Source of the DNA: Acidobacteriota bacterium | GTDB taxonomy: Bacteria; Acidobacteriota; Terriglobia; Terriglobales; Acidobacteriaceae | DNA: 64,000 bases | Direction of reading: 5' to 3' | Assembly (NCBI GenBank): GCA_021803035.1 | Contig: JAJZME010000024.1 | Coordinates: 38,888 to 102,887, forward strand | In this document: piece after piece, positions 14,372-54,139 of the stretch | Layout: every line of letters begins with the position of its first letter | Position numbering within the stretch: position 1 is the stretch's first letter | Program-made: the position numbers and the translations under genes | Notes under the pieces: generated by a model | The model's input: only the letters and a program-made list of their open reading frames with translations | Database searches by the model: none | Told to the model about the DNA's origin: nothing

Positions 14372-14437
14372 GATCGTCAAAACGAGTGTAGGGCCCAGGC
14401 ATGATCAACGTGGGCCTCTTTGGAATTAACAAGTTAC

Positions 14438-14836
14438 ATGCCTCCGAAACGATCCAACACGCTGACCGAAGCCGAACTGAGGCTGATGAAGATCCTTTGG
14501 CAGCGCGGTGACTCAGCCGTAACCGACCTGGTTTCCGCCATGCCCGAGGGCGAAACTTTGGCATACAACTCGGTGTTGACCACAATCCGCATCTTAGAAC
14601 GTAAGGGGTATGTGGAGCATCGACAGGAAGGCCGGGCGTTTATTTACCGCCCGCTGATCGCCGAGAATGAAGCCGGCCGTTCTGAGGTACGCCGCGTGCT
14701 GAACCGGTTCTTCGGCAACTCGCGTGAACAACTATTGCTCTCGCTGCTCAATGACGAAGAGATTTCCCCCGAGGAGCTTGAGCGCTTGAAAGACGCCATA
14801 CGCGACGCATCGCCAGACAGCTTGGATGAGGCTTAG
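14438..14836 (+). CDS. BlaI/MecI/CopY family transcriptional regulator
   Basis: LTEAELRLMKILWQRGDSAVTDLVSAMP...LAYNSVLTTIRILERKGYVEHRQEGRAFIYRPL winged-helix signature. Confidence 0.93.
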   Translation: MPPKRSNTLTEAELRLMKILWQRGDSAVTDLVSAMPEGETLAYNSVLTTIRILERKGYVEHRQEGRAFIYRPLIAENEAGRSEVRRVLNRFFGNSREQLLLSLLNDEEISPEELERLKDAIRDASPDSLDEA

Positions 14837-14842
14837 GGACCT

Positions 14843-16456
14843 ATGCACCTGACCGCATTTTTCGATCTCGTGCTTCACGCCATCGAGGGCGCCGCGAATT
14901 CCCTGCCCGCCGCCTGGCTCACCTTGTCGCAGTCCGCCGCGGCCCAGGTGATCACGGCCGCCTGGCAGGGCGCGGCCGTTGCTTTAGGTCTGGCCATCTG
15001 CCTCCGCCTGGCGCCGACGAGCCCCGCGCGGCACCGCTTTGCCTTGTGGGCCGCCGGCTTTGGCACACTCGTCGGTTTGCAGCTCTTCCCTTTGATCGCG
15101 CCGCTTCTCCCGACTCATCTTTCCGGCGCTCCGGTTGCCGCCGCAGCAGTCGGCGCAGCGCAATCTGTCTCGCATCCGTGGCTGCAGTTGCAATTGAATG
15201 CCGCCTGGAGCATCGTGATCGCCTCGCTGTGGCTGGCTGCGCTGCTTTACCGCGCCGCCGACCTCGCGCTTCACTCCTTCCATCTGCGCAAGCTCTGGAA
15301 GACCGCAGTTCCCGTCGAGCCTGCAGCCTCGGCTCCCCTGCTGAGCTCGCTGCGTGTAGAAGGCCGCGGGACCATTCAAATCTGCACCACGCACGAACTG
15401 GAACGTCCCAGCGTCATCGGCTTCATCGCCCCGCGCATCCTCATCCCCGACTGGCTCTTTGCGCGCCTCACGCCCGGCGAGCTTGAGCAGATTGTGCTGC
15501 ACGAGACCGAACATCTGCGCCGCCGTGATGACTGGACCAATCTTCTGCAAAAACTTTGCCTGGTTCTCTTCCCTTTGAACCCCGGGCTGGCGTGGATCGA
15601 GCGCCGTCTTTGCCGTGAGCGCGAGATGGCCTGCGACGACGGGGTCATTCGCATCACCCGCGCGCCGCGCGCCTATGCGGCCTGTCTCACCAGCCTGGCC
15701 GAACGCGGCCTGCAGCGCCGCACCGGCGCTCTATCGCTGGGTGCATGGAGCCGCCGCCCTGAACTGGTGCATCGCGTTCACAGCATCCTGCGGCACAAAC
15801 ATGCGCTCAGTCCAGCCGCGGCTCGCGCCCTGATGGGCGCATTGGGTTGCGGCTTGCTATTCGGCGCCGTGGCTCTGGCGCGCTGCCCGCGCTTGATCGC
15901 ATTCGTACCGGCGCATAAGGCGTCCGCGCCGGCGGTGCTTGCCGCACACGCATCGGCACAGTCCGCCCCAGCCCTGCCCGTCGCAGCGAATGTGGCCGCC
16001 AATGCGCGTGTTATGGATGCATCAGCCCGGATGGCCGCGCCGCGCCGCCCGGTGGTCAAAACAATTCCATTGCACGCCTCGGTAAGACATGCCGCTCCGA
16101 GGCCGGTTCGCACCAGCGCTTGGGGTGCGTCGTTTGCTCCTGAAGCAAGGCCTGTGGCAACGAAGGCGCTGGAAGGCACGGATGCCGCCAAGACCGGCGA
16201 AAGCCTGATCGTGGTCACCACGTGGGAGCGAGTACAAATGACCGGCAGTCTGAACGCCCAGTTGGCAGGTGTTGCACCCGGCTCCGAGCCGGGAATGATC
16301 CGCGCCACCAGAGCCAGGACTCCGCGCGTAGGCAACGAATTAACTCATCAGATTATGGTCACCCGAATGTTTCTTCGCATCTACCCCGCCGGTTCCGTCG
16401 TGAGCCGCGATGGCGTAGCAACCGGCTATGCAGGCTGGCTGGTGATCCAACTTTAA
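14843..16456 (+). CDS. BlaR1-like M56 family membrane metallopeptidase
   Basis: TM segments, VLHETEHLRRRDDW (HExxH), LCREREMACDDGV; follows blaI by 6 bp. Confidence 0.88.
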   Translation: MHLTAFFDLVLHAIEGAANSLPAAWLTLSQSAAAQVITAAWQGAAVALGLAICLRLAPTSPARHRFALWAAGFGTLVGLQLFPLIAPLLPTHLSGAPVAAAAVGAAQSVSHPWLQLQLNAAWSIVIASLWLAALLYRAADLALHSFHLRKLWKTAVPVEPAASAPLLSSLRVEGRGTIQICTTHELERPSVIGFIAPRILIPDWLFARLTPGELEQIVLHETEHLRRRDDWTNLLQKLCLVLFPLNPGLAWIERRLCREREMACDDGVIRITRAPRAYAACLTSLAERGLQRRTGALSLGAWSRRPELVHRVHSILRHKHALSPAAARALMGALGCGLLFGAVALARCPRLIAFVPAHKASAPAVLAAHASAQSAPALPVAANVAANARVMDASARMAAPRRPVVKTIPLHASVRHAAPRPVRTSAWGASFAPEARPVATKALEGTDAAKTGESLIVVTTWERVQMTGSLNAQLAGVAPGSEPGMIRATRARTPRVGNELTHQIMVTRMFLRIYPAGSVVSRDGVATGYAGWLVIQL

Positions 16457-36645: not shown

Positions 36646-36733
36646 CCCGGTTAGCCTCTCCGCCCGTAGTGAAAGCTTGGTGTTGAACGGGCACGGCCTG
36701 AGAGGCTGCGGAAAAACTCTGTGTTTTGAAAGG

Positions 36734-36787
36734 GCACGGCTTCAGCCGTGCCGTGAACGTTACAAAATCCGTGCGGCTTTAGCCGCT
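36734..36787. repeat. REP-like hairpins in the kdpB-kdpC spacer (GGCACGGCTTCAGCCGTGCC; GCGGCTTTAGCCGC)
   Basis: Two adjacent palindromic elements; the first is similar to GGCACGGCTTCAGCCGGGCC at about 51.6 kb. Confidence 0.7.
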
Positions 36788-51523: not shown

Positions 51524-51711
51524 GGATCCGCGGTTGCCTTTAGCGCACTCCGCAATCTCACAAACGCTCATCAGTGATACGGCCAACGCGGAGCTTTGTA
51601 ACAGGGCACGGCTTCAGCCGGGCCGAAAACGCTCGCAGCAAATGACCCGGGCTTCAGCCCCTGCTATCTGCTTTTGGGGGTAATCTCCGGCAAAGGTCCC
51701 ACTTGGCGGTC
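51524..51711. repeat. Imperfect direct repeat, copy 2
   Basis: ggatccgcggttgcctttagcgcactccgcaa...cacaaacgctca...gtaacagggc...cttcagcccctg...gggggtaatctccgg...ggcggtc. Confidence 0.65.
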
Positions 51712-51985
51712 GTTCGGGCGCTTGCCACCTTCAAGGCAGCCGGTAGCAGGACGACTGCTGTGCTATATAACAAGGGCACGGCTTCGGCCGGATCAAAAAC
51801 GCTCGCAGCCAACTATGCGACCGGAGCGGCTCCGAAATGCCGAGATTGGGTAGAACTCTCACCATCCCCGGCCCCCAAACGCGAAGGGGCACCGTGGCCA
51901 CCCGCCGTAGATGAGCTTCTACGGATAGAAAGAGTCCATCTCCAGCCTCACGCACCGGGCGCTAATGACGGAAACGTTGTACCCT

Positions 51986-53719
51986 TTAATTTGCAGAAGG
52001 CTGATCGACGTGCTCGACGATGATTGTCTCTACCGGACCTCTTCCCGAAGCGAGGTTCAGACCGATTCCTTTCATTGCCGCTCGCAAGATTCCTGGAATG
52101 TCGTTGTCGTTCTGCTCGTCTCCGATTCGATATTCAAAATCGTACGACCCCTTCAACCCGGTGCGGTCGAATACCGGACAATGCAGGAATCTACTCAGCC
52201 GGTGGGCGAGTTGGGGCATGGAGATGTTCTCGCCGCGCACACCTCCTCCAAGCCATCCGCCGCTAATTCCCCCGGCCCAGGGGAACGCATTCTTATCTGC
52301 TGGTGGATCCAACTTGAGCGGCTTGCTTCCCCGGGTGAGGAGAAATACGCGGCCTTGCCTGGTGGTGGCTTGAAACTGGAGTTGGAACCGATGTATCAGG
52401 AGCGAAAGCAGCATTTGGCGCTGTTCAATGTTGGGTGGCAGCTTGGGGAGAGCGGGATCAGACCTGGCTGAAAGCGATGACGCTGGGGGCTTCGCCTGAA
52501 TGTCGTATCTTTGCCCTCGCACTAAATTGATCCAGCCAGGACCGCCGGAAATCTGGTAGGGTTGCACGTTTAACGCCTCCATGATTAGATACTGCACCGT
52601 GCACCCCTTGCAGACGACCATGCCCCCAGGATAGGTATAAAGCCCATTGAGTTCCCGTTGAGTTGGACCGGATGGCCGGATTGAGGCAACTTCAAACTCG
52701 GGTAGTGTGGATGGAACGCTTTGCGTGTTGACAGGCTTGGCGTCTATCAGGCCAAGCGCCAAAGGGGCGGTTAACGCCACCAGTCCAGCCGACCCCAGCA
52801 AGAGCTTCTTGCATAGATTCAATTTATGTGTCGCGTAGCCGATCATGATGCGCAGAATCCGCTCTTTCAGATCGGCGCTTGTTACTCCGGCAGCACAACC
52901 CAGCGACGTCTCAACATAAAGCTTACACACGTTGAGGATGCTCTCTGCATATATCTCTGCCGCGTTACCTTCCTGCACAACCGTCTCGTCGCAGGCCCGC
53001 TCGCGTTCCTCGATCAGCCGCGCACCAATCCACCATACTGGCGGATAGAACCAGAACACTACTTCGACGATCATGTGCAGAGCAAATGTCAAGTTATCGC
53101 GCCGCATGGCGTGGCACATCTCGTGCGCAATGACAGCCTTTACTTGTGACGGCGTAAGGCGAGTCAAAATATCTTCGGGCAACAGCAGCACCGGGTGGAA
53201 GATGCCGAAGACCCCGGGTTCAATAAGTTCATTCGTCGAAAACACAGGCAAGGATGCCATGGATTCGCGAGGCGATGCGGCCCGGACCGCCGCACGAATG
53301 TGCCGCCACGCCCTAGACCACCTCGCGGCGACCACCAGCGCCCCACACGCCCAGACCACCAGAAGTGCTAGCGGTAGCAAATTCGCATGTTGCGCGGCCA
53401 CTGCGGCTGGCGCCGCGCTCAAAACCTGCTGGAATGCAATTGGCTGCTCGATCTGCTGCAGAACAGAGGCGATCGCCGGCTGTGCAGTAGCGGGATGTGA
53501 TAACAGAGACCGTGCCCACTCGCCTGCCGCAACAAGCAGCGAAAACGGTAGGAGGAACTTTAGCGAGGCCGCCATCCACACCCAGTAGCGAGTTCGTGCT
53601 TGATTCTTTCGCAACAACATCGCCAGTAGCCACGCTATCGCGACCACGATTGTCGATTGCCAAAGGTGGTTTACTATTGCAGCGGTCCAGTGCTCGTGCC
53701 ATATTCCCGGAAAGCTCAT
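51986..53719 (-). CDS. BlaR1-like M56 metallopeptidase fused to a TIGR03435-like C-terminal domain
   Basis: IAHEMCHAMRRDN (HExxH); C-term EFEVASIRPSGPTQ...YLIMEALNVQPYQISGGPGW...RYDIQAKPP...MLLSLLIHRFQLQFQATTR...FDRTGLKGSYDFEYRI. Confidence 0.88.
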   Translation of the reverse strand: MSFPGIWHEHWTAAIVNHLWQSTIVVAIAWLLAMLLRKNQARTRYWVWMAASLKFLLPFSLLVAAGEWARSLLSHPATAQPAIASVLQQIEQPIAFQQVLSAAPAAVAAQHANLLPLALLVVWACGALVVAARWSRAWRHIRAAVRAASPRESMASLPVFSTNELIEPGVFGIFHPVLLLPEDILTRLTPSQVKAVIAHEMCHAMRRDNLTFALHMIVEVVFWFYPPVWWIGARLIEERERACDETVVQEGNAAEIYAESILNVCKLYVETSLGCAAGVTSADLKERILRIMIGYATHKLNLCKKLLLGSAGLVALTAPLALGLIDAKPVNTQSVPSTLPEFEVASIRPSGPTQRELNGLYTYPGGMVVCKGCTVQYLIMEALNVQPYQISGGPGWINLVRGQRYDIQAKPPASSLSARSDPALPKLPPNIEQRQMLLSLLIHRFQLQFQATTRQGRVFLLTRGSKPLKLDPPADKNAFPWAGGISGGWLGGGVRGENISMPQLAHRLSRFLHCPVFDRTGLKGSYDFEYRIGDEQNDNDIPGILRAAMKGIGLNLASGRGPVETIIVEHVDQPSAN

Positions 53720-54115: not shown

Positions 54116-54139
54116 CGAAGTAGTAGTACTACTACTTCG
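54116..54139. promoter_or_regulatory. Perfect 24-bp palindrome CGAAGTAGTAGTACTACTACTTCG, probable BlaI operator
   Basis: Direct reading; 16 nt upstream of the blaI ATG, next to the RBS (AGGAG). Confidence 0.75.

Follow-up and report, generated by a model that had tools for sequence, protein, structure and literature searches.

The locus and its gene products

The gene under study encodes a protein in which a membrane protease of peptidase family M56 is followed, within one polypeptide, by a TIGR03435/DUF3738 domain (Table 1; by "window" we mean the whole analysed stretch of 64,000 nucleotides). It starts with ATG and runs as a single open frame with no internal stops. As the original prediction had proposed for this gene, it is an M56-TIGR03435 fusion, both parts of which exceed curated cut-offs: Peptidase_M56 (PF05569, Pfam) matches aa 21-289 (4e-31, 108.7 bits; cut-off 31), DUF3738 (PF12543, Pfam) matches aa 377-571 (4.2e-36, 125.3 bits; cut-off 22) and TIGR03435 (NCBIfam) matches aa 340-577 (2e-42, 145.6 bits; curated cut-off 40). 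A failure of the C-terminal domain to match TIGR03435 had been named as evidence against the prediction, and the match extends over the full model (positions 1-241). The score above the PF05569 cut-off and the zinc-site residues of the HExxH and ExxxD motifs place the protease part in family M56. No beta-lactam sensor domain was found with the NCBIfam model blaR1_generic, which is covered over positions 8-315 of 585 only (79.9 bits; cut-off 400), and PADLOC reported no match for the fusion protein. The claim that TIGR03435 stands in place of a beta-lactam sensor fits the anatomy, but the trees described below do not show that a penicillin-binding domain was replaced in this lineage.

Table 1. 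Features of the BlaI/fusion locus (window coordinates)
Feature	Position	Strand	Basis
M56 metalloprotease + TIGR03435/DUF3738 fusion, 577 aa	51986..53719	-	ORF list, Pfam, NCBIfam
M56 membrane protease part, aa 1-336	52712..53719	-	HEMCH at 199-203, E240xxxD244
TIGR03435/DUF3738 domain, aa about 337-577, two predicted internal repeats, predicted extracytoplasmic	51989..52711	-	
BlaI/MecI-type repressor gene, 127 aa	53716..54102	-	PF03965, 88.7 bits
24-nt perfect palindrome CGAAGTAGTAGTACTACTACTTCG, putative BlaI operator	54116..54139	.	

The cryo-EM study of BlaR1 assigned catalytic roles to His201, Glu202, His205, Asp210, Glu242, Asp246, Tyr261 and Arg294 (PMC9834060). In the alignment to BlaR1 (8EXS) these residues correspond to H199, E200, H203, D208, E240, D244, Y257 and R287 of the fusion, and all eight are invariant in 33/33 fused sequences, the window protein included; judged by its sequence, the fusion protease looks active. 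Where BlaR1 has its autocleavage loop, the fusion family has a conserved loop of its own, typically NVCKFYLESPLACxSGVTGxDLKKRI, in which Phe is missing at the equivalent of the scissile bond. Two cysteines in and beside this loop (aligned to aa 265 and 275 of the window protein) are conserved in most of the fused homologues. The M56 part contains hydrophobic segments at about aa 18-36, 47-65, 114-132 and 307-325, the last of which has basic residues ahead of it and precedes the TIGR03435 domain like the last transmembrane helix of BlaR1. Their arrangement is compatible with the topology of BlaR1, which would place the C-terminal domain outside.

The repressor gene upstream of the fusion and the palindrome ahead of it had not been mentioned in the original prediction. 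The stop of blaI overlaps the protease start by 4 nt, and its own start is a TTG directly followed by ATG. In Staphylococcus aureus BlaI the cut falls between Asn101 and Phe102, and the Phe has been described as almost invariant (PMC9834060). At the aligned position the window BlaI carries His98-Leu99 (numbered from the ATG), not Asn-Phe. His-Leu is common to most of the other 29 aligned repressors, exceptions including Arg-Leu in the homologous loci L039 and L050 and His-Phe in L043, and the position is hydrophobic throughout. We predict His98-Leu99 as the BlaI cut site; the membrane protease probably destroys the adjoining DNA-binding repressor.

The palindrome lies upstream of blaI, separated from its ATG by 16 nt, and none of this size was expected from shuffles of the window. 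In the whole genome its central 14 bases have no second place with up to 2 mismatches, and the sole weak second place (C42:3808) comprises 18 bases with three mismatches; with a unique putative operator, the analysis found no target gene besides the pair. In several homologous loci (L039, L050, L051, L062) BlaI-type dyads with the pattern CTAC...GTAG precede blaI by about 45-50 nt; the one in L051, TCTACCACATATGTAGTAGA, lies about 45 nt ahead of the gene. The window palindrome has its half-sites in the opposite order (GTAG...CTAC) to several of these relatives. A sigma-70 promoter scan gave nothing above chance, and an Rfam search reported no RNA. Elsewhere between genes, GGCACGGCTTCAGCCG elements were observed (window 51605-51790 and 36733-36752), with five matches in the window at up to 2 mismatches against 0.17 expected.

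The whole-genome scan of the host identified three places with TIGR03435, namely the fusion and two stand-alone genes, and two M56 genes, each with a BlaI gene directly upstream. Both BlaI-M56 pairs are inside the window; in the second (14420-14836 and 14843-16456, plus strand) the M56 part is followed by neither TIGR03435 nor another Pfam domain, and its C-terminal part is unassigned.

The TIGR03435 domain and its contexts

TIGR03435 had been described in the original prediction as abundant and functionally uncharacterised. It is abundant in some of these bacteria, a single genome of the phylum sample having as many as 13 reported places, and a PMC literature search found no paper naming TIGR03435, DUF3738 or PF12543. 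Comparison of the N-terminal with the C-terminal half of the domain (68 sequences) yielded an hhalign score of 28.6, whereas the best of 200 column shuffles reached 18.7 (P about 1e-4); a previous comparison gave 21.5-24.2 for the real halves and 2.0 for a reversed control. The excess over the shuffles suggests that the domain is most likely an internal tandem duplication. Homology to STN/secretin-N domains, suspected from the strand-helix pattern, found no support: with the two repeats compared to each other as the yardstick (28.6-29.7), the hhalign scores of 7-15 fell inside the range of the shuffled controls (the TonB_C control profile consisted of 2 sequences only and is worth little). A search for homologues of solved structure returned none that was credible, and an AlphaFold model of the single domain, at a pLDDT of 30, was of no use. 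Four columns of the alignment are invariant (W, F, T and G), and inspection by eye recognised no enzyme-like conserved motif.

Signal-peptide-like starts were found in 30/32 of the non-fused TIGR03435 ORFs, which suggests that the domain is normally exported and extracytoplasmic. The predicted extracytoplasmic location of the domain in the fusion is in keeping both with the stand-alone form and with its place in the protein, where BlaR1 has its sensor. Other contexts were also seen: the domain follows a secreted thioredoxin-like/AhpC-TSA domain in L020, L021 and L027, which belong to other families of the phylum; an unassigned WQGTL...SIDQGG-type domain, some 125 aa long, separates M56 from TIGR03435 in five fusions (L014, L051, L055, L059, L061) and stands N-terminal to TIGR03435 in L001 and L013; and the homologous fusion L043 contains two TIGR03435 domains. 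Three copies of the WQGTL-type domain (from L051, L001 and L013) were scanned against Pfam and gave no match.

Distribution and history of the fusion

An architecture of M56 plus DUF3738/TIGR03435 is listed in Pfam/InterPro, mainly in Acidobacteriota. A whole-protein search of 399 genomes of the class gave matches in 275 at E <= 1e-8, a count that mixes in M56-only and TIGR03435-only matches. The survey of fused and stand-alone genes advocated in the original prediction shows the fusion to be widespread: among the best 30 loci of the class (the window's own included), 30/30 have both domains in one frame, 29/30 have a BlaI ORF beside the fusion, and in at least 7/30 a stand-alone TIGR03435 gene is no more than 1.5 kb away from it, a closeness that suggests a pathway shared by the fused and the stand-alone proteins. 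With an architecture so widespread, the window protein is no singular find, and it is diverged, with about 38-56% identity to its best relatives. Other collections were less productive: a protein search of the genome-contig collection reported only a distant M56 protein of Eubacteriales; a plasmid search gave partial matches, none of them covering 80% of the query and the annotated ones being BlaR1, MecR1 or M56; and scans of viral contigs yielded one truncated relative only. A 4-kb IMG/VR contig carries at its edge the truncated TIGR03435 ORF L071 (1-522; L081 is on the same contig), and the ORF beside it resembles, by eye, the large subunit of a phage terminase.

In the tree of TIGR03435 domains, copies from fusions are intermingled with unfused ones, and the well-supported branches require at least eight changes between the two states, which indicates that fusion or separation happened repeatedly; only one other end branch is of a length comparable to that of the window domain, these two being the longest. 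The M56 tree unites the window protein with L039 and L050 (support 98/92). A sensor swap in the lineage was considered, as the window domain stands apart from those of L039 and L050 on the domain tree, and was not retained, since the AU test does not reject co-inheritance with the M56 part (p = 0.47). The trees show a fusion that has been kept across the class.

In the host itself the locus is likely a recent acquisition. It overlaps the stretch of lowest G+C of the window, and its GC3 is 0.63, against 0.72-0.83 for the other window genes checked. Neither blaI nor the fusion nor the LacI-type gene was found upstream of the orthologous ABC-F gene in the 15 same-genus genomes whose readable sequence covered the ABC-F start together with several kb ahead of it; another genome offered just 1.8 kb of upstream sequence, and four did not yield the start of ABC-F. 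A rearrangement at the locus would look the same.

A proposed BlaR1-like signalling pair with another input

We propose, with a probability of roughly 0.65, that blaI and the fusion gene form a self-regulating signalling pair of the BlaI/BlaR1 kind that responds to an input other than beta-lactams. A BlaI dimer would bind the 24-nt palindrome and repress the two-gene operon. The second product would be a zinc protease with four membrane helices, its active site, as homology to BlaR1 predicts, in the cytoplasm, while the TIGR03435 domain with its two predicted repeats would reside outside the cytoplasmic membrane. A signal from the envelope, which may be a small molecule, a fragment of the cell wall or one of the exported stand-alone TIGR03435 proteins, would bind to this domain, change the membrane protease and free its site, whereupon the protease would cut BlaI at His98-Leu99, the equivalent of the Asn-Phe site, and repression would be lifted. 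We count in favour of this proposal the curated domain matches, the invariant catalytic residues, the last hydrophobic segment, the linkage to blaI, the palindrome and the dyads of the relatives, the signal-peptide-like starts and the nearby stand-alone TIGR03435 genes; against it we count Leu for the near-invariant Phe in BlaI, the replaced autocleavage loop with its missing Phe, the single strong operator in the genome and the half-site order reversed with respect to several relatives. The reading of the TIGR03435 domain as the sensor is, on the grounds of its position, export and linkage, the most plausible single explanation of what it does here.

The domain could also be a structural, inhibitory or anchoring module, acting for example via an envelope partner, with the input arriving through the membrane segments or another protein. 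Its varied contexts (alone behind a signal peptide, following a thioredoxin-like domain that is secreted, with the WQGTL-type domain) would suit an exported module of general use better than one dedicated to sensing, and so would an alignment in which W, F, T and G are the invariant columns and no enzyme-like motif is seen by eye. However, it sits where BlaR1 carries its sensor and has been kept in 30/30 of the best-matching M56 sequences, which argues for a role in M56 function, and we regard such a module as rather unlikely. A protease that degrades a target other than BlaI, the repressor being regulated only by its abundance or by a ligand of its own, would account for the change of Phe to Leu at the cleavage site in nearly all cognate repressors, but the near-universal linkage of blaI to the M56 subfamily with TIGR03435 and the hydrophobic residue retained at that site make it highly improbable.

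The composition and history of the locus bear on whether the pair does anything for its host. The low G+C and GC3, the absence of the locus upstream of ABC-F in the 15 readable same-genus genomes and the one strong operator would all be expected of a recently acquired, mostly self-contained autoregulated pair with no important host output, selfish or decaying; the intact reading frames, the invariant catalytic residues and the many genera of the class that keep the same gene pair speak against this, and we consider it very unlikely. Extending the proposed signalling pair beyond the window, we tentatively raise, as a doubtful generalisation, that TIGR03435 is a two-repeat extracytoplasmic input for BlaI/M56 systems across the class, the exported stand-alone proteins encoded nearby being signals or co-receptors; if true, one large protein family would be explained as envelope signalling. 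In any case the fusion is an entry point to a large family for which the PMC search returned no literature, and it offers a direct assay, with BlaI cleavage as the readout of ligand binding to TIGR03435. A positive outcome would show that the BlaR1 chassis takes non-beta-lactam inputs, with a recoded cleavage site in the repressor.

Compared with the BlaR1/MecR1-BlaI/MecI systems of Staphylococcus and Bacillus, the window locus has the same gene pair, the M56 gluzincin core with the same catalytic residues, a last membrane segment predicted to lead to an extracytoplasmic C-terminal domain, a BlaI-type repressor and a palindrome, here a putative operator, ahead of the repressor gene. Unlike those systems, it has a TIGR03435 domain and no penicillin-binding sensor, its own loop in place of the autocleavage loop, and Leu where the cleavage site of BlaI has Phe, and neither a beta-lactamase nor a PBP gene was seen beside the pair. 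The other M56 + DUF3738/TIGR03435 proteins of the class share the architecture of the window protein, which has diverged from them, whereas the exported stand-alone proteins (Soli_TIGR03435) have the same domain above the curated cut-off, with signal peptides of their own and without the protease. To these comparisons the present analysis adds the probable tandem duplication of the domain and its predicted extracytoplasmic location, the interleaving of fused and unfused copies, the family's own loop and the His-Leu site of most cognate repressors.
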